64,000 nt of DNA from Anaerolineales bacterium (GCA_025056175.1 JANWWK010000053.1:62001-126000); one strand, 5' to 3'. Positions 42,393 through 54,271 are shown, counted from the first letter of the stretch. Numbers and translations are program-made. The notes: generated by a model from the sequence alone, not told the origin.

Positions 42393-45300
42393 TCAAGCGA
42401 GTTTTCCCTCTTCCCATAATTTCAAAAAGGTTTCGACGACGTTCGGGTCAAAGAGCGTGCCTGCGTTCTTTTTGATGTATTCCAGCGTAGCCTGCTGACT
42501 CCAGGCCGGGCGGTAAGGACGGTTACTGGTCAGCGCGTCCCACACGTCTATCACCGCAAAAATGCGCGCGATAAGTGGAATCTCCTGACCTTTCAGCCCA
42601 CGCGGATAGCCGCTGCCATCCCAACGCTCATGATGAGAAAGCGGAATTTCCAGCGCCGGACGCAGGTATTCGATAGGAGAGAGCATCTGAAAGGCGTAGA
42701 GCGGATGCATCCGCATAATTTCCCACTCTTCGTCGGTCAATTTATCGGGTTTGAGCAAAATGCGGTCTGGCACGGCCAGTTTGCCCATATCGTGCAAAAG
42801 CGCACCGCGCCGGATGTGAACCCGCTCCTCCTCGCTGAAGCCCATGGCTTCGGCCACCTTAAGGGTCAGTTCAGTCACACGCAACGTGTGTCCTTCGGTT
42901 TCGCGGTCGCGCAGGTCGAGCGCGCGCGACCAGCCTTCGATGGTGGTTTCATAGGCCAGATTCAACTCGCGCAAAGATTTTTGAATCCCCTCAAACAGAC
43001 GAGCATTCTGAATAGCAATGGCCGCCTGGTTGACGAACGCCCGCGCCAGTTTCGCCTGTTCTTTGGAATACGCGGCGGGGGTGCGGCTATCGAGCGTGAT
43101 GTAGCCGAAGACTTCACCGCGTGCAATCAGCGGCACACCCATCCAACCGCGTACGTAAGAGGTTTCTCCCCAGCGGTTGAAGCGCGGGTCCTGGGAAGCA
43201 TCGTCCAGGATGAGCAGATGTCCGTTGCGAAGGGTATCGGCAAATAACGGGTCATTGGCCGGAAAGGTTTGATTCATCACCTGTTCCGCGTCCGGCAGGC
43301 CGCGCGTCAGCATGATGCGAAGGTGGTCTCCTTCAAGCAGGAAGATGCTGGCGCTATCGAACGGCACAACCTTTTCCAGCGAATCCAGGATAATTTCCAG
43401 CACCCGTTCCAGTTCGAGCGAGGTCGAAAGCGCGCTGACGGCTTCGATGAGCGTTTCGGCCTCGCGGCGGCGCCGGCTTTCAGATTCGAACAGGCGGAAG
43501 CGTTCAATGGCGTTCGCCAATTGCCCTGCAATCGTCATCATCAAACGTTCGTCCTCTTCCGTGAAGAAATCCAGCTGAGTGCTCTCGGCATTAATGATGC
43601 CAATGACCCGCTCATCGAGTGTAATTGGCACGCACAATTCGGAACGGATGGCCGGGTTGGTCATCAGGTAATCAGGCGTCTGCCGCACGTCGGGAACGCG
43701 GCGCGGCTTGCCTGTGAGAACGACTGAACCCGAGACACACCCGTTGACCGGAAAGCGTTCCCCAATATCCACATTCAAACCATAGTAAGAGGGGTGTGCC
43801 TGCAGAAATTGCCCGCTTTCATCGAGAAAGCCAAATCCGAAGTTATCGGGGTAAAACGATTTCACTGCTTCCTGGGTGACAAAGGTCAGAAGCTCATCCA
43901 GGCTGCGCGCACGAATTGCCATGCCGGCAATCGAATGAAGAAGAGTCAACTCCTGCACCTGACGGCGCAGCGCCTGTTCGGCGCGTTTTCGTTCGGTAAT
44001 ATCTACCGCCACACCAATTACGCCCTGAACTTGCCCATCTTCATCGAAGAACGGGGCGTAAGTGGAGTCGAACACAATTTTCCCAATGTGGTCTTCACTG
44101 CGCGCGGTTTGCCCTGTCAGAGCACGCTGAATGGACTGGATGATGCTGGGGTAGTCTCGATACAGTTCCAGCGCCGAAACGCCCACCACTTCACCAGGCG
44201 TGAGCCCCAATTGTGCCAGCCCTTTGCCCTCAGACAGGGTGAAGACACCATTCTTATCGAGCATAAAGGAAACAACATCGGCGCCGGTGACCACCGTGCG
44301 GTAACGCTGTTCACTCTCGCGCAAGGCAGCTTCGGCCTGACGGCGTTCAGCCAATTCGCGTTGCGCGGCTTCCAATAAATGTGCGTTTTCGACAGCGATG
44401 GCGGCCTGGTCGGCAATCAACTGCAACAACCGCAGTTCTTCAGGCGAGTAGGGGTCGGTGCGACGGTCATCGGTCACATCAATTACCCCAATCACCCGCT
44501 CTTTGACTATCAGCGGCACGCCCAGAACCCTGCGAAATTGCATTTGTTCATACACCGGCGCACGACCCTCCCACTGGCTATAATCGAACACCATCAGGGG
44601 TTTGCCGCTCTGGGCAACCCGTCCCGATAGCCCTTCCCCCAAACGCAGGCGTGTTCCCAAAAAACGTTCCGGGATGTGATATGCCACTACCAGTTCGAGT
44701 GTTTGTCCGTCTTCGTGCATCAGATACAAACCACCCATCGGCGCATTCAGCAAAAGCGCAGCCTGTTCGACAATCGTTTGCAGCAAGGGCATCAAAGCCA
44801 TCTGTGCATTGATTTTCAGAGACGTGGCATACAACCCTTCCAGTTCGCGGGCGCGGCGTTCCAGGGTGGCTTGTGCCTGCCGGCTTTCGGTGATGTCATG
44901 TGCAATCCCAAAGACGATATGGGAGTTGATAGGCACCGCCGTCACCCGTGCAATCCGCACAGAACCATCCGGGCGCACATACTCTACCTCTGCGAACTCG
45001 ATGGTCTCATCCGTTTCAGCCAGGCGTTCGAGACGTTCTTGCGCCCCCTTGGGGGTGATGTCGAAGATGGTCAATCGCTTGATTTCTTCAATACGCCGTC
45101 CAGTGAGACGCTCAGCGGCGCGGTTGGCATCCAGATACCGCCCTGTTTTCCGCTCCACCACAAAAATCGCATCGTTAGACCGTTCAAACAACATCCGAAA
45201 ACGGCTCTCGCTCTCACGCAGGGCGGCTTCGGCCTGGCGACGTTCAGCGCGCACTCGCGCTTCGCGGATTTCACGCCGTAAAGCTTCGGCCAGGCGGTTC

Positions 45301-45641
45301 AGGTTGTCTTTCATCAGGTAGTCATGCGCACCGGCGCGCATGATTTCTACCGCCGTGGCTTCGCCAATCGTCCCAGAGACGATGATAAACGGCAAATCCT
45401 GCCCGCTCTCGTGCAGAACGGCCAGCGCATCTGGTGCGCTGAACGAAGGCAGACGAAAATCCGAGATGACAACATCCCACTCCTGCCCGGTTAACGCCTG
45501 CCGCATTTCTTCTTCGGTTTCGACACGCCGCATTTGTACCTGGAAGCCCGCCTGCCGCAGTTCATACACCAGCAATTGCGCGTCCAGGTCACTATCTTCG
45601 ACGAGCAACAACCGCAACACCTCACCCGCACCCGTGTTCAT
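42393..45641 (-). CDS. Multi-sensor response regulator with C-terminal HD-GYP domain
   Basis: 1082-residue cytoplasmic regulator. Domains in order: receiver (about 9-125, LLLVEDSD and the phospho-Asp in VISDFRLPSF), PAS (145-262), GAF (285-430), PAS (445-560), GAF (580-725), GAF (745-890), HD-GYP (905-1078). The HD pair is in LLHDMGK near 949 and the GYP motif in HERWDGSGYPRG near 1013, so cyclic di-GMP hydrolysis is likely. No transmembrane helix is present. The ATG at 45641 has no ribosome-binding site; TATAAT ends seven bases before it, giving a leaderless message. It is divergent from the 45748 gene. Confidence 0.92.
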   Translation of the reverse strand: MNTGAGEVLRLLLVEDSDLDAQLLVYELRQAGFQVQMRRVETEEEMRQALTGQEWDVVISDFRLPSFSAPDALAVLHESGQDLPFIIVSGTIGEATAVEIMRAGAHDYLMKDNLNRLAEALRREIREARVRAERRQAEAALRESESRFRMLFERSNDAIFVVERKTGRYLDANRAAERLTGRRIEEIKRLTIFDITPKGAQERLERLAETDETIEFAEVEYVRPDGSVRIARVTAVPINSHIVFGIAHDITESRQAQATLERRARELEGLYATSLKINAQMALMPLLQTIVEQAALLLNAPMGGLYLMHEDGQTLELVVAYHIPERFLGTRLRLGEGLSGRVAQSGKPLMVFDYSQWEGRAPVYEQMQFRRVLGVPLIVKERVIGVIDVTDDRRTDPYSPEELRLLQLIADQAAIAVENAHLLEAAQRELAERRQAEAALRESEQRYRTVVTGADVVSFMLDKNGVFTLSEGKGLAQLGLTPGEVVGVSALELYRDYPSIIQSIQRALTGQTARSEDHIGKIVFDSTYAPFFDEDGQVQGVIGVAVDITERKRAEQALRRQVQELTLLHSIAGMAIRARSLDELLTFVTQEAVKSFYPDNFGFGFLDESGQFLQAHPSYYGLNVDIGERFPVNGCVSGSVVLTGKPRRVPDVRQTPDYLMTNPAIRSELCVPITLDERVIGIINAESTQLDFFTEEDERLMMTIAGQLANAIERFRLFESESRRRREAETLIEAVSALSTSLELERVLEIILDSLEKVVPFDSASIFLLEGDHLRIMLTRGLPDAEQVMNQTFPANDPLFADTLRNGHLLILDDASQDPRFNRWGETSYVRGWMGVPLIARGEVFGYITLDSRTPAAYSKEQAKLARAFVNQAAIAIQNARLFEGIQKSLRELNLAYETTIEGWSRALDLRDRETEGHTLRVTELTLKVAEAMGFSEEERVHIRRGALLHDMGKLAVPDRILLKPDKLTDEEWEIMRMHPLYAFQMLSPIEYLRPALEIPLSHHERWDGSGYPRGLKGQEIPLIARIFAVIDVWDALTSNRPYRPAWSQQATLEYIKKNAGTLFDPNVVETFLKLWEEGKLA

Positions 45642-45747: not shown

Positions 45748-48156
45748 ATGACCGATTCCAGAATCGAACGTGCTACCATCGAAACCGCTACCGACCTGAA
45801 ATCCATCGCGCAATCGCCATCGGTGCGCGACCTTTCGCGCCTGAGCCTGCCAGAAATTGAAGCGGTGGTAGAAGTCACTTCGCAAATCATCCCGGCCGGC
45901 AACATTCCGGGCATGATTCTCAACGGTCTCACACGTCTTTCGGGTCAACGTCTGCCTCAGCAGACCGTCCAAAAGCACATTACTGCTCTTTTCAGCGCGC
46001 TCGATTTTCTCTTCGCCCAGGTCACTTCCGGGGCGGTGCTGGTTGCGCCTGCCGCCGTCATCTGGGGTTATCAGAATCTGCTCAAACTGGCCGGCAAAGA
46101 CCCCGAATCGGCTTTTCCAGAAGGCATCTGGCAATTTTATGTGGATTATGCCCTGCGCGAAGACACTGCCCGGCATGTCATCGAAACACACGGGTTCGAT
46201 ACGCTCCTGTATCAGCACGGCATTCGCCTGAACGAACTCGACCGTCTGACGGCGTGGGTGATGGCCGCTATCAGCGTCTTGAACCAATACGATGCCTTGC
46301 TGGAAATCGAATGGCGTGAACGAGTCGCCACCGCCATCCTGCGCGAACTCACCCGTTCTCTACCCCAGGCGGCCCGCTATGCCCGCATCTACCGCGAATG
46401 GGAAATCCAGCGTCCCTACCGGCGCGGCGCCGAAGCAGCCAATTACGATTATCCCGATTATCGCCGCATCAAATTTCAACACTTTTTGCAAGAGGCCATG
46501 CGTCCCCTGCCTGCCGACCTGCGCGCCGAATGGCAGCGACGCATGAGCGAAGCCGAGCGCGAACTACCAGCCTATCAGCGGCAGATGTCTATCCTGGCCT
46601 ATCTTGAACCGGGACAGTACGGCGAAACACGCACGCCCTACAACTTCGAGCAAGCACACATCGGCATCATCTTGCGCGGCAACTACTACCTGCTGCCCGT
46701 GTGCGCGCCCGGCAGCGACCAGCCCCTCAATGCCGAAACCGTGCGCGCCCAGCTGGCAGCCCTGCTGGCCCTGCCTGGCGCTCAACCCGCCCGCCTGACC
46801 GAACTCGCACGCATCAAACGCTCAGCGCTGCCCGGTCTGTTCCGCAAACTTTCTCCAGCGGTAGTCGAAGAACTCTCCCGTCTGCGCTTTGCCCCCATCC
46901 TCATCAATGCCGATACCCGCCCCGCGCACCTGCCACTTACCGAACTGCGGCAGGCCGAACGCGGAATCGGCAGTCATGCCCTGACCCTGTTCCTGACCGA
47001 TTCGACTGCGGTGTTCGACCTTTCCCACATCTTCTTCGATGGCATCCTGGGCGCAGCGCTGGCCGAAATCCTGACGAACGAAGCCCTCTCGTGGGCAGCC
47101 TACCTGCACACCCTGCCTGCCACACGTCCAGCCGTACAACGCATCTTCCACGCCCTGGCCTTTCCGCTCACCCCCGCCGACCATGAACAAATTCGTGTTG
47201 CCCCGCGTGTCACCCCAGAAGCCGGGGCCGAATCGGACAAAATCAACCTGCGCGCCTGTCTGAATTTGCGGCATTACTTCAAACAACGCAACGATGCCCT
47301 GAAACTCACCGTCAATGACCTGCTGGTACTTTACCGCGCCATTCACGCAGCCAGGTACCAGCCCTCGCCCGAACTGGAAAAGAAACTCGAAAAACTGGCT
47401 GCCAACCGCACCACGCGCGCGCTGGCCGACCAAATCCGCGCCGCCATCGAAGAATCGCGCCGACAGAATCCCTCCATGCTGATTCCAATGGATGCCAGCC
47501 GCCAATCACCCCGCGACCGGCTATACCCCCTCAGCATGGAAGTTCCGCTGGCCGAGCTGGACTTGCTCAACCTGCACGCCCGCGCCATTCAGACACTGAA
47601 CGCCTACGAAGGCCATAAAGGCGACCGCAGCGCTCTCTACGCGCAATTCGACGAAGCCCAGCGCACCTATCTGGCTACGCTCGCTGGTTTCAGCGCGATT
47701 TTTGACCGTCTCAAAGAAATTGCCATTCGCGGTGAGAGCGCCAGCGTGGCTGCTATCAAAGCCCTGGCGCACATGCCACCAGCCCTGCAACACCTGCTGG
47801 ACCAGATTCCCAGCCGTTTCGAGCTGCTCAACAACGTCCTCAAAGGACGCGAAGTGTTCTCAAACGTTGGCGCTGTCGTCCCCTCCAGCACCCTGCGCCG
47901 CTTCGTCACCGCAAAAGATGACAACGAACAAAAACAACTGGTGTGGGGCGTCATCACCGATGCGCGCGGCGTTCTGCGCATCAGTCTGCGCGACTTTCGC
48001 CCCCACGTCGCCGCCCTGCAGGCCGCCGGACGTGCCGACCTGGCACACGACATCACCCAGGACTATCTCGACTCCTACGTCAACGGATTCAACAACTTCA
48101 TCTTTGACCTGCAACGCATCACCCTCGCCAGCCGCAAAACTCTGCCCGAACGCTGA
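45748..48156 (+). CDS. Divergent choline/carnitine acyltransferase-like protein
   Basis: 802-residue soluble protein without an obvious paralogue in the window. The middle third has features of CoA-dependent acyltransferases: HIGIILRGNYYLLPV (304-318), followed by LNAETVRAQLAALLAL, LTELARIKRSALPGL, then FDLSHIFFDG with H427, D431 and G432 in the HxxxDG pattern of the catalytic His, and LTVNDLLVLYRAIHA near 520. The order recalls choline/carnitine acyltransferases (FFKLDV, LEAQLQ, HSWADG), but the family's C-terminal Tyr-Gly and Arg-Thr-Glu motifs were not found. The N-terminal 280 residues and the last 200 are helical and unassigned. It is 47 bases before a receptor-like kinase gene. Confidence 0.5.
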   Translation: MTDSRIERATIETATDLKSIAQSPSVRDLSRLSLPEIEAVVEVTSQIIPAGNIPGMILNGLTRLSGQRLPQQTVQKHITALFSALDFLFAQVTSGAVLVAPAAVIWGYQNLLKLAGKDPESAFPEGIWQFYVDYALREDTARHVIETHGFDTLLYQHGIRLNELDRLTAWVMAAISVLNQYDALLEIEWRERVATAILRELTRSLPQAARYARIYREWEIQRPYRRGAEAANYDYPDYRRIKFQHFLQEAMRPLPADLRAEWQRRMSEAERELPAYQRQMSILAYLEPGQYGETRTPYNFEQAHIGIILRGNYYLLPVCAPGSDQPLNAETVRAQLAALLALPGAQPARLTELARIKRSALPGLFRKLSPAVVEELSRLRFAPILINADTRPAHLPLTELRQAERGIGSHALTLFLTDSTAVFDLSHIFFDGILGAALAEILTNEALSWAAYLHTLPATRPAVQRIFHALAFPLTPADHEQIRVAPRVTPEAGAESDKINLRACLNLRHYFKQRNDALKLTVNDLLVLYRAIHAARYQPSPELEKKLEKLAANRTTRALADQIRAAIEESRRQNPSMLIPMDASRQSPRDRLYPLSMEVPLAELDLLNLHARAIQTLNAYEGHKGDRSALYAQFDEAQRTYLATLAGFSAIFDRLKEIAIRGESASVAAIKALAHMPPALQHLLDQIPSRFELLNNVLKGREVFSNVGAVVPSSTLRRFVTAKDDNEQKQLVWGVITDARGVLRISLRDFRPHVAALQAAGRADLAHDITQDYLDSYVNGFNNFIFDLQRITLASRKTLPER

Positions 48157-48202
48157 CCCTTTCCTGCGCGCCCCTGCGCTTTCGCCTCCTGACTGATTTC
48201 CT

Positions 48203-49960
48203 ATGACCTTCACCGACCCTCTCATCGGCAAACAGCTTGCCAACTTCCGCATCGAGCGCGTTCTCGGTCGCGGCGGCATGGCGCAGGTCTACTACGGACA
48301 AGACATCAAACTCCAACGCCCGGTCGCCATCAAAGTCATAGATGCCCGCTACCGCGACAATCCACAATATGCCCGCCGCTTCGTCACCGAAGCACGCGCT
48401 GTGGCCCGCTGGCGACACGAAAATATCATCCAAATCTACTACGCCGATGACCAGGACGGTTTGTACTATTACGTCATGGAATACATAGACGGACCCGACC
48501 TGGCAAGCGTGCTGAATGCCTATGCCACACGCGGCGAAAAACTACCCCCCGCCGAAGTCCTGCGGATTGGCAAAGCTATTGCCTCTGCGCTCGACTACGC
48601 ACACAAACACGGCATCATCCACCGCGACGTTAAACCCTCCAACGTATTTCTCTCCAAAGACGGGCGCGTTGTGCTGGGCGATTTCGGCCTGGCGCTGGAC
48701 GTGAATCAAGGCTCCTCAGGGGAGGCCTTTGGCAGCCCCCACTACATTTCCCCTGAACAAGCGCGCCGCTCAACCGATGCCACCCCGCTTTCAGACCTGT
48801 ACTCGTTGGGGGTCATCCTCTACGAAATGCTGACCGGCGTCGTCCCCTTCGACGACCTCTCCCCCACCAGCGTTGCCCTACAACACCTCACGCAAGAGCC
48901 GCCCCCGCCGCGCAGCCTGAACCCGCAACTTAACGCTGCCACCGAAGCCGTTCTGCTCAAAGCACTCAGCAAAAACCCTCAGGAGCGCTACCCCAGCGGC
49001 GCCGCCCTGATGGAAGCACTTGAACAGGCTCTCGCGCAGCCTGCCTCCACCCAGGAACACATCCTGCCTCTGCCGCCGCTGCCCGCCGCCGTGCTGGGTG
49101 GAAAAACCCGCCCCGTCACACGCAAAATTCTACCCGCCACATCCCCGCCCAAACGCCGGCGCGGGCCGCTCTACCTGTTCTTATTGCTTCTTGCGCTCTT
49201 CGCGCTCCTCTTTTTTGGAAATCTCCAACGACAGGGCGGTTTCCCGGCTCTCTTCCCCTTCCTGGCCCCCAGCCCCACCCCTACCCCCACCTGGACGAGT
49301 CTCCCGACTGCAACCGCCTCGCCCAGCCCCAGCATGACCGCCTCTCAAACCGCCTCTCCCACTGCCACGCACACCCTCACCCCACGCCCCAGCGCCACCC
49401 TAACCGCCTCCGCCACGTCCACATCTGCCGCCACAACCACCTCTACCCCATCCCTGACCCTAACATCCACCACCCTGCCATCTGCCACCTCCATCACTGC
49501 CACCCCAACACCAGCCACCGCCCCACCCTCCACACCCGCCACACCCGCCACCCCCACCACCACCCCACCCTTCCCCAACCTCAAGCGGATGTGGTTGTAC
49601 TACGACGAATACGGCTTCTATATCTACAACGCCTCACCTGATAACCGCTCCATCTCCCCAATCGCCTTCGAGCGGCTGGATGGCAGTAACCGCTTCGGCG
49701 GCTTCCTGTGGGCCGAATTCTATGCCACCCTGCACCCCGGGCGTTGTATGCGCATTGAAATCCAAAAAAATCCCGGCAACTATCTCAACCCGCCCCTGTG
49801 CCGCAACTACTACCTGAGCACCCGCAGCATCACGCGCGATAGTGACCTCATCTTTTGGACAGCGCAACCCAACAACGACCGCTTCCGCGTCCTGTGGCAA
49901 AACCAGGAAGTCGGTCTCTGCACGATTGCAGACGGCTTCTGCGAGGTCTTCATCCCCTAA
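48203..49960 (+). CDS. Transmembrane Ser/Thr protein kinase with extracellular domain
   Basis: 585-residue receptor-like kinase. The Hanks-type kinase domain spans about 10-275: GRGGMAQVYYG, AIKVI with the ATP Lys, HRDVKPSNVF and GDFGLAL. A single helix lies at about 323-343 (GPLYLFLLLLALFALLFFG). It is followed by about 110 residues of almost pure Thr/Ser/Pro/Ala, a mucin-like spacer, and a C-terminal domain from about 465 (RMWLYYDEYGFYIYNASPDN) with several Cys, likely an extracellular sensor of unknown ligand. No PASTA repeats are present. The ATG has no clear ribosome-binding site. It is probably transcribed with the acyltransferase-like gene. Confidence 0.92.
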   Translation: MTFTDPLIGKQLANFRIERVLGRGGMAQVYYGQDIKLQRPVAIKVIDARYRDNPQYARRFVTEARAVARWRHENIIQIYYADDQDGLYYYVMEYIDGPDLASVLNAYATRGEKLPPAEVLRIGKAIASALDYAHKHGIIHRDVKPSNVFLSKDGRVVLGDFGLALDVNQGSSGEAFGSPHYISPEQARRSTDATPLSDLYSLGVILYEMLTGVVPFDDLSPTSVALQHLTQEPPPPRSLNPQLNAATEAVLLKALSKNPQERYPSGAALMEALEQALAQPASTQEHILPLPPLPAAVLGGKTRPVTRKILPATSPPKRRRGPLYLFLLLLALFALLFFGNLQRQGGFPALFPFLAPSPTPTPTWTSLPTATASPSPSMTASQTASPTATHTLTPRPSATLTASATSTSAATTTSTPSLTLTSTTLPSATSITATPTPATAPPSTPATPATPTTTPPFPNLKRMWLYYDEYGFYIYNASPDNRSISPIAFERLDGSNRFGGFLWAEFYATLHPGRCMRIEIQKNPGNYLNPPLCRNYYLSTRSITRDSDLIFWTAQPNNDRFRVLWQNQEVGLCTIADGFCEVFIP

Positions 49961-51178: not shown

Positions 51179-54100
51179 ATGAAAACCAGATGGTTTGCTC
51201 TTACAAGCATGGTCTTGATGCTGGGGCTTCTGATTCTGCCCCGGCAGGTTTCCTTCGCTGGAATGCGGCCAACTAGCGATGACCTGGTCTTCGACTTCAC
51301 TGCAAACGCCCTGCTCGCCGAATGGCGCAGCGGCGCAGGAACATTGCCCTTTCCAGGTACCAGCGGTGACCATCGCGGTTATGCCCTGACGCTGGATGCC
51401 CCTGTTCAGGAAGATAGCACTGTCGGCGCGCCGGGTCTGCTCACCGTGCCACAAAACAAATACGATGGTTACATTCAAGGCATTTACCCCGAATTCACAG
51501 TACAGAAAGGTGACCGCTTTCAGGTCACGGTTGGCTGTGAAGCCGCAGCAAAGAACTGTTACGTCACCTACCGGCTCGATTACATCACGTCCTCCGGCGT
51601 CACAAAAATCTTCTGGAGCTGGAAAGAAAAGCACGAAGGGCGCACTTACCACGCAAACCTGGATTTGAGCCGCCTGGCAGGGCAAAAAGTGCGTTTTGTG
51701 CTGACCTTGCTGGCAAGCGGGCCAGCAGCCAACGACCGGGCGCTGTGGGTGTCCCCGCGCATTGTGCGCCCCGGCAACGGAAAGACCCCGCAACCCACGC
51801 TTACACCCACTGCCACCCCGTTCAACACCCCGCCACCCATCCCCCCTGCCGGATGCGACCGCGCCTCCTTCGTAGCAGATGTCACCGTGCGCGATGGCAC
51901 AGCCTTTGCGCCTCGCCAGACGTTCACAAAAACCTGGCGGCTCAAAAACACCGGGACATGCGCCTGGACACGCGATTACGCCCTGGTTTTCTACAGCGGT
52001 GAGTTGATGGGCGCGCCCACCCTGGTCAACCTGCCCTGGCGGGTAGAGCCCGGCGCAATGGTGGATGTCACCGTCAACGCCGTTGCCCCGGCTTCCCCTG
52101 GTCAATACCGCAGCGACTGGATTCTACGCAATGCCAGCGGGCAATTGTTCGGCATTGGCCCAAAAGCCGATAAACCCTTCTGGATGCTCATCAATGTTAT
52201 CGGCACTCCGCCGCAAGCCAGCAGTGGATACGACTTCGCTGCCAACCTGTGCGCAGCCGAGTGGCGCAGCGGCGCGGGTATCCTGGCCTGTCCCTTCTCC
52301 GAAGGGGATGCACGCGGTTTTGCTCTGACACGACCTGCCCGGATGGAAGACGGCACAACCACCGACCCGGCCATTCTCACCCACCCGCAAAACAAATACG
52401 ATGGCTATCTTCAGGGAACTTTCCCAACCTTCACCGTGCAGCCTGGTGACCGTTTTCAAGCCATCGTGGGATGTGAACACAACACCCGTTGCTACGTCAC
52501 CTTCCGGCTGGAATATCTGACACCCGGCGGCGCACCACGCATCTTCTGGAAATGGTCTGAAAAGAACGAAGGCAAAACCTACCGCGTTGACCTGGATTTA
52601 TCGCCCCTGGCCGGACAAAGTGTGCGCTTCGTACTGACCACGCTGGCTGCCGGCCCGGCAACCAATGACCGGGCTGTGTGGGGCGCGCCGCGCATTGTAC
52701 GGCCAGGTTTGCCTGTCGCCACACCCACCCCCCTTCCTTCACAAACCTGGCCGCTGTTCTTGCATGCACCTTACGCGTTTGAATTGCGCTACCCCCCAGA
52801 AGGGTACTTCACGGCACAACTCACGAACTTCGGCCACCTGGAATTGCCGAAACTCCAGAGCGGCACCAACCTGAGCAGCAAATACATGGAGTACCGGCTG
52901 GTCAACGGCAGCACCACCTGCACCGTCAACGACACCTTCGGCCCGCCCATCGGTGTCCTGTCCACACAGGAAGTGGTCGTTAACAGCCTGACCTTCACCC
53001 GCATAGATGGTCTGGAAGCCTCCATGAACCACACCTACCGTTACACGTACTACACTGCGCGCAGCGCCAAGACCTGCCTGACGCTTTTGTTCCTGCTGCG
53101 TGCAGGCACACCGGAAGTGTATGACCCGCCCCGCCCGCCATACGATTACACGTTGGAAGCCTCCACGTTCACGGAGATGATGAACACCTTCGCCTGGCCG
53201 GCTCTGCCATCAGGCCAGGTGACGAACGTCACCCTTTCGTCCACGCTCGCACCGGTTTCATGTACCACTGGCCTGGTACAGGCCGATTTGAACGGCATCA
53301 TCACCACCGACGGCGCGGCACGCGTGGTTTACCATTGGGAAATTCTCGGCGATTCAGTCAACCAGGTCACCCCAGACCAGCTTCTGCTCTTCGGTGAAGC
53401 CGCCTCGCAAGCCGTTACGACCACGTTCTCCCTGCCCTGTGGAAATCACGTCCTGCGGCTGGTGACAATTGCCCCAAACGAAAACGCCGCTCAGGTGAAC
53501 GCCCCGCTCAACCCACCCGAAGCGACGCCCCTGCCATCTTTTACATCCCCTTACGCCGTCATCGGCCTGCCGCCAGAAAGCGCCCTGAACCTATACGCCG
53601 CCCCCGGCACAGAGAATCCGATTGCAGGCAGTTTACCATCTAATGCCAGAAACATCGAGCGCGGCACAACCGTAGTGACGATAGGCAGTGAACGTTGGGT
53701 CGAAGCCCGTCTTCCGGGGCAGATTGCCGGCTGGGTGAAAGATTCTCACCTCACCGAAAGCATTGCTCCCGAAACCTTCGTGACCGATGCGCGCCCCATT
53801 CAACGCATTGTTGCGCTTGCCCAGGCCATGAATCAGTCTGATGGTAACCTGTTCGCCTCATTAATCAGCCCCAAACGCGGCGTGACGATTTACTATCACG
53901 GTACGTGGAGTAACCCCGTGACCTACGATTTCACTCGCGCACAGCAAGCCTTCACCAACCCGGAAATTATTCACTGGGGGCCCGAAGGCGCAAGCGGTTA
54001 CGAAGCCATCGGCACGTTTGCCGAAATCATCCGTCCAAAATTGCTGGATGCGCTCACTGCTCCCTACCAGATTCATGCCAATACCCCTCTGTATGCGGCT

Positions 54101-54271
54101 ATGTACGTTGAACCCTGGCCAGGTATCTACCAGAACCTGAACTACTATGCCATTCTCAAGCCACCCACGCCCGGCCTGGAACTGGATTGGCGCATTTGGC
54201 TGGCCGGTTTCGAGTATGTAGATGGTGTGCCATACCTGGCAGCACTGCTGCACTACGTGTGGGAACCGTAA
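51179..54271 (+). CDS. Large secreted protein with duplicated domain, NBR1-like Ig and SH3b domains
   Basis: 1030-residue exported protein. The start at 51179 has GGAGG. The signal peptide covers residues 1-27. Two homologous domains (about 38-195 and 350-500) share EWRSGAG, NKYDGY, QGIYPEF/QGTFPTF, KEKHEG/SEKNEG and VRFVLTLLA/VRFVLTTLA. Between them (226-335) is an NBR1-like Ig domain (TKTWRLKNTGTCAWTRDYAL). A Pro/Thr linker follows each domain. After residue 800 there is a bacterial SH3 domain (NLYAAPGTENPIAG to GWVKDSHLTE) and a C-terminal domain not recognised. Such surface proteins probably bind cell-wall or polysaccharide ligands. It is followed by mazG in opposite orientation. Confidence 0.85.
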   Translation: MKTRWFALTSMVLMLGLLILPRQVSFAGMRPTSDDLVFDFTANALLAEWRSGAGTLPFPGTSGDHRGYALTLDAPVQEDSTVGAPGLLTVPQNKYDGYIQGIYPEFTVQKGDRFQVTVGCEAAAKNCYVTYRLDYITSSGVTKIFWSWKEKHEGRTYHANLDLSRLAGQKVRFVLTLLASGPAANDRALWVSPRIVRPGNGKTPQPTLTPTATPFNTPPPIPPAGCDRASFVADVTVRDGTAFAPRQTFTKTWRLKNTGTCAWTRDYALVFYSGELMGAPTLVNLPWRVEPGAMVDVTVNAVAPASPGQYRSDWILRNASGQLFGIGPKADKPFWMLINVIGTPPQASSGYDFAANLCAAEWRSGAGILACPFSEGDARGFALTRPARMEDGTTTDPAILTHPQNKYDGYLQGTFPTFTVQPGDRFQAIVGCEHNTRCYVTFRLEYLTPGGAPRIFWKWSEKNEGKTYRVDLDLSPLAGQSVRFVLTTLAAGPATNDRAVWGAPRIVRPGLPVATPTPLPSQTWPLFLHAPYAFELRYPPEGYFTAQLTNFGHLELPKLQSGTNLSSKYMEYRLVNGSTTCTVNDTFGPPIGVLSTQEVVVNSLTFTRIDGLEASMNHTYRYTYYTARSAKTCLTLLFLLRAGTPEVYDPPRPPYDYTLEASTFTEMMNTFAWPALPSGQVTNVTLSSTLAPVSCTTGLVQADLNGIITTDGAARVVYHWEILGDSVNQVTPDQLLLFGEAASQAVTTTFSLPCGNHVLRLVTIAPNENAAQVNAPLNPPEATPLPSFTSPYAVIGLPPESALNLYAAPGTENPIAGSLPSNARNIERGTTVVTIGSERWVEARLPGQIAGWVKDSHLTESIAPETFVTDARPIQRIVALAQAMNQSDGNLFASLISPKRGVTIYYHGTWSNPVTYDFTRAQQAFTNPEIIHWGPEGASGYEAIGTFAEIIRPKLLDALTAPYQIHANTPLYAAMYVEPWPGIYQNLNYYAILKPPTPGLELDWRIWLAGFEYVDGVPYLAALLHYVWEP

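Follow-up and report, generated by a model that had tools for sequence, protein, structure and literature searches.

Genome comparison suggests that an acyltransferase-like protein of 802 residues and one type of Ser/Thr kinase are inherited together as an undescribed signalling unit. The pair was characterised in the window, i.e. the whole analysed stretch of 64,000 nucleotides from an Anaerolineales bacterium (GCA_025056175.1 JANWWK010000053.1:62001-126000), where the two open reading frames lie as an earlier note on this DNA had it, at 45748-48156 (+; 802 aa) and 48203-49960 (+; 585 aa), with a gap of 46 bases. The sequence features named in that note are also in place, namely HIGIILRGNYYLLPV from residue 304, LNAETVRAQLAALL from residue 327, HIFFDG from residue 427 and LTVNDLLVL from residue 520. 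The fold of the protein, the conservation of its motifs, the operon structure and the co-occurrence of the module were established by computation. In the literature searched, whose coverage largely left out subscription papers, no description of an acyltransferase-like/kinase pair was found. The features of the pair are as follows:

45748..48156 (+): acyltransferase-like gene, 802 aa (ORF, relatives, dN/dS)
45748..46029 (+): N-terminal helical extension, residues 1-94, pLDDT mostly 60-79, outside the matched fold
46030..48126 (+): carnitine/choline acyltransferase-like fold, residues ~95-793 (Foldseek, VIA)
46657..46701 (+): strands 304-318, within the profile match in register with CPT2
47026..47043 (+): HIFFDG (H427-G432), presumed catalytic HxxxDG (conservation)
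47305..47331 (+): LTVNDLLVL (520-528), superfamily-like helix start
47860..47871 (+): SNVG (705-708), C-terminal motif, near-invariant and presumed to correspond to STS (conservation, placed by hand)
48203..49960 (+): Ser/Thr kinase gene, 585 aa (ORF, Pfam)
48248..48994 (+): protein kinase domain, PF00069 E 5e-48, with HRDVKPSN and DFG
49172..49216 (+): single hydrophobic, presumably membrane-spanning stretch YLFLLLLALFALLFF, residues 324-338 (sequence)
49265..49567 (+): Thr/Ser/Pro/Ala-rich linker, residues ~355-455 (sequence)
49577..49957 (+): extracellular 4-Cys beta domain, lamin-tail-like fold (tentative)

Distribution and predicted fold of the acyltransferase-like protein

Relatives of the 802-residue protein were found in 10 of 61 related genomes, in 20 of the 400 phylum genomes searched and, in one scan of genome contigs, on 155 stretches of DNA. 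The 80 of these 155 stretches that were listed all belong, by title, to Chloroflexota, mainly Anaerolineae with the addition of Herpetosiphonaceae, and on this basis the family is likely restricted to that phylum; the pair is carried by the complete genome of Herpetosiphon aurantiacus DSM 785 (CP000875). Compared with a same-genus genome (G003), two parts of the gene gave dN/dS values of 0.042 and 0.059. These low values, together with the relatives in genome contigs and phylum genomes, place the reading frame beyond chance: it is a real gene under strong purifying selection. Searches of viral contigs, plasmids and phages returned no relatives of the protein, and no CrAT relatives were found on the plasmids searched, so that a role as mobile-element cargo was left unsupported.

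As to the surrounding genes, most of 22 loci have an oppositely oriented class IV aminotransferase gene (PF01063) next to the acyltransferase (e.g. L077:6-848), and 19 have a tyrosine recombinase (PF00589) on the upstream side; both were rejected as constant partners because these 22 and 19 loci are a minority. The divergent upstream gene of the window (42393-45641, -), which encodes a response regulator, PAS, three GAF and a C-terminal HD (HD-GYP-like) domain, also adjoins the acyltransferase in G003. On the other side, the gene at 51182-54271 (+), which likewise stands beside the module in G003, codes for a large protein containing an N_BRCA1_IG domain (PF16158, E 1.6e-23).

A structural model of the 802-residue protein, built with AlphaFold from a 76-sequence alignment, reached a pLDDT of 83.8 and a pTM of 0.82. 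When it was compared with the PDB by Foldseek, the best 24 matches all belonged to the carnitine/choline acyltransferase family, with E values from 2.8e-12 to 3.9e-9, followed by NRPS condensation domains (E 5e-5). VIA also returned CPT2, CrAT, ChAT and COT as the nearest folds, with rat CPT2 at Z 22.2 (510 residues aligned over model residues 103-792), ChAT and CrAT at Z 20-21 and the carnitine/choline acyltransferase family ranging over Z 19.7-22.2; outside this family, AzeD reached Z 16.2, and C domains and WS/DGAT enzymes Z 13-14. The acyltransferase-like core proposed in the earlier note is thus borne out by the predicted fold, which extends further than was then supposed: about 480 flanking residues had been called unassigned, whereas the fold spans residues ~95-793 and leaves only ~94 N-terminal residues outside. 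Two CAT-like lobes and an HxxxD(G) at a strand end, as in the CoA-dependent acyltransferase superfamily, are present in the model, with H427 following strand 421-426.

Single-sequence searches with the window protein gave no match in Pfam, NCBIfam or PDB sequences, and no Pfam or NCBIfam profile recognises the family. A profile of the family matched CPT2 in register at profile positions 297-389, weakly (E 0.27), with two chance ribosomal matches ranking above it in the same search. In searches with PF00755, the window protein had no match, and two family members, the best in the runs that give bit scores, matched the corresponding region at 12.3 bits, below the gathering cut-off of 22.3; a search of 301 phylum genomes with this profile found none, but as the control genomes likewise gave no match, this outcome says nothing either way. 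The T-E/D-T-I-R and DRH head-group motifs of carnitine/choline acyltransferases, as read from CPT2 and CrAT (PDB chains), are absent from the window protein, as is the STS motif. The Pfam score below the cut-off and the missing STS and TETIR motifs keep the protein out of PF00755, and the family is a separate branch that has the carnitine/choline acyltransferase fold and probably works alike.

Putative active site and a divergent paralogue

The HxxxDG motif singled out in the earlier note proved to be strongly conserved, with histidine at position 427 in 74 of 76 sequences and aspartate at 431 in all 76; both residues are invariant in 17 more widely spread sequences. Glycine at 432 is kept in 74/76 sequences of the alignment, and so is each of S705, N706 and G708. 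Matching by hand (profile alignment gave no usable residue map) pairs HSWGDG of CPT2 with HIFFDG, and LSTST of CPT2 with FSNVG. The absence of the family's C-terminal motifs, as first supposed, holds for STS, but the near-invariant SNVG (705-708) stands at the apparently corresponding, hand-placed position, where LSTST or LSTSQ would be expected.

All exceptions to the conservation of H427 and G432 belong to one paralogue clade, comprising L141 and L143 (L141:8001-10355, L143:8001-10382) together with L139 and L142 (L139:4520-6886, L142:8001-10367), the latter two copies having a stop in the matched frame. In this clade SHIFFDG is replaced by SQIFFDA or SQIFFDS (H427Q, G432A/S) and SNVG is broken, H427, G432, S705, N706 and G708 having been lost together. 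This joint loss argues that HxxxDG and SNVG belong to one functional site, and the two motifs probably form the active site of the family, as far as conservation can tell. Among 119 near-invariant positions (at least 98% conserved in sequences other than the paralogue), the paralogue changed 14, with 14/67 after residue 420 vs 0/52 before it (P 1.7e-4). Half of these changes (7 of 14) fall within the two motif stretches; the first 420 residues, this suggests, may be kept for a reason other than the motif site. The clade would represent a natural pseudoenzyme with the remainder of the protein conserved, and the four loci with an otherwise conserved copy devoid of H427 point to a non-catalytic role for at least some members. 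At three of the four paralogue loci, the paralogue is separated from a pair of kinase genes by two genes, one of them for an MscS-like channel.

The partner kinase and its linkage

The window kinase is of the Hanks type, with PF00069 and the HRD, DFG and activation-loop PE motifs all present, and its dN/dS against G003 is 0.120. Its C-terminal region, described as a novel extracellular domain in the earlier note, is a 4-Cys beta domain modelled with a pLDDT of 95.8. It gave no sequence match; its nearest solved folds are lamin tail domains (Foldseek E 9e-4; the top 11 VIA matches, at Z up to 7.5, where a Z under 8 may mean a mere common arrangement), and a lamin-tail-like fold is proposed tentatively. 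The four cysteines are invariant, which fits a location outside the cell. Upstream of the module, the same domain also occurs in two ORFs in which no kinase domain was detected (L098:1931-3214, L110:1937-3232).

Partner architectures vary, most having a single membrane span and the 4-Cys domain, those of Herpetosiphon and others two kinase domains, and some an FGE domain. Two kinase domains in one chain were recorded at loci L127, L111, L119, L115, L102, L136 and L128, and partner kinases ending in an FGE-sulfatase (SUMF1-like) domain at L122:10486-12705 and L128:3591-6758. The 4-Cys domain was rejected as the constant link, since many partners lack it and have a second kinase or FGE domain instead; the constant elements of the module are the acyltransferase-like protein and the kinase domain.

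The linkage with kinase genes is conserved across the phylum as well. A Ser/Thr kinase is found directly downstream, on the same strand, in 68 of the 78 testable loci (80 were surveyed, two contigs ending inside or at the acyltransferase-like gene). Among the 12 of 80 loci without an adjacent kinase, one contig ends 449 bases past the gene, six loci have room and no kinase within the fetched flank, and at the remaining three a kinase pair lies ~2.1 kb downstream. The stop-to-start distance is -4, a 4-base overlap, in 26/68 pairs, and the gene order is kept in five distant lineages. Since the window's own genome holds ~15 kinases, chance adjacency would be expected in <1% of cases.

In a tree of kinase domains, where long branches blur the details, the partner label requires 2 changes vs 17.7 in shuffles. 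Of the 61 related genomes, 10 have the acyltransferase, and 9 of these also have a partner-type kinase (E <= 1e-80); the other 51 genomes have neither (Fisher P 6e-10, a value that overstates independence because the genomes are related); the missing tenth genome is G007, where the contig ends inside the acyltransferase gene. Genome G041 has one acyltransferase copy without an adjoining kinase, and its best match to the partner-type kinases is encoded on a different contig (L163, G041:C146:3925-5759), which has no acyltransferase match and carries another, divergently oriented kinase gene.

Possible roles and comparison with known systems

On balance, we favour the reading that the 802-residue protein is a CoA-dependent acyltransferase controlled by its partner kinase, of which we infer the catalysis, the acceptor class and the direction of control. 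In a cytosolic acyltransferase of this kind, acyl-CoA and acceptor would enter the inter-lobe tunnel from opposite sides; by analogy with the superfamily, H427 of HxxxDG would deprotonate the acceptor and the SNVG strand would help to hold the intermediate. The membrane kinase, on a signal outside or inside the cell, would phosphorylate the acyltransferase or a complex holding it, and acyl transfer would thereby be switched on or off. A precedent from this superfamily is the acyltransferase PapA5, which PknB phosphorylates (PMC3709824). The acceptor is probably not carnitine, given that STS and TETIR are missing and that no BCCT carnitine/choline/betaine transporter was found in the window's genome, in a search whose controls worked. 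More tentatively, and with doubt prevailing, the Chloroflexota unit might be one in which the acyltransferase-fold protein reads or sets the acyl-CoA state and the membrane kinase converts this into phosphorylation, or the reverse, with an acceptor new to the enzyme family.

The main rival, given the paralogue without the motif residues, is that the protein mainly serves as a sensor of acyl-CoA or acyl acceptor, or as a scaffold, that steers the kinase, a tunnel ligand altering its shape and catalysis being secondary or absent. In that paralogue none of the 52 near-invariant positions up to residue 420 has changed, a kinase pair lies within 2-4 kb at three of the four loci, and the C-terminal parts of the kinases vary (4-Cys, second kinase domain, FGE) while their partner is constant; but nearly every member of the family retains H427, D431 and G432, which would not be required of a pure sensor, and we consider this role unlikely overall. 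It is decidedly improbable that the acyltransferase acylates the kinase, another protein or a cell-envelope lipid near the membrane, the kinase being the target: translational coupling suits complex formation and the kinase has a membrane-spanning stretch, but no acylation-site motif is known, and the substrates of the fold's relatives are small molecules or carrier-bound acyl groups.

An ordinary carnitine or choline acyltransferase with a chance kinase neighbour would agree with CPT2, CrAT, ChAT and COT as the closest folds, but is made very improbable by the adjacency (68/78), the co-occurrence (9/10 vs 0/51), the missing STS/TETIR and the lack of a BCCT transporter. We give scarcely any credence to a free-standing condensation, WS/DGAT or BAHD-type enzyme, whose likeness to carnitine acyltransferases would reflect the shared superfamily fold: C domains and WS/DGAT match at Z 13-14 and SNVG is more like the C-terminal motif of this group than STS, but carnitine/choline acyltransferases score far higher, with ~170 more residues aligned.

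Under the favoured reading of a kinase-controlled acyltransferase, a large bacterial branch tied to one kinase type would supply something that is usually lacking, namely a concrete candidate substrate for a bacterial Ser/Thr kinase. The known carnitine/choline acyltransferases are mainly eukaryotic, and the bacterial branch offers a new place to seek the origin of their family.

With the PF00755 family (CPT2, CrAT, COT, ChAT) the 802-residue protein shares a two-lobed fold of ~490-530 residues and the HxxxDG motif, HSWGDG in CPT2, but it scores below the cut-off, lacks STS/TETIR, has extra N-terminal helices, is bacterial and is tied to a kinase. NRPS condensation domains and AzeD have the same chloramphenicol-acetyltransferase-like lobes, but match at Z 13-16 vs 22 with ~170 fewer residues aligned. 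The window kinase resembles PknB-type Hanks Ser/Thr kinases in its kinase domain with catalytic motifs, and differs in that no PASTA repeats were detected and the C-terminal parts are variable. PapA5 of Mycobacterium tuberculosis sits in a lipid/polyketide cluster and is not known to have a dedicated kinase gene as its partner. It matches the 802-residue model at Z 13 only (1q9j); the likeness of the PapA5/PknB system lies in an HxxxDG acyltransferase of the same superfamily being phosphorylated by a bacterial Ser/Thr kinase (PMC3709824).
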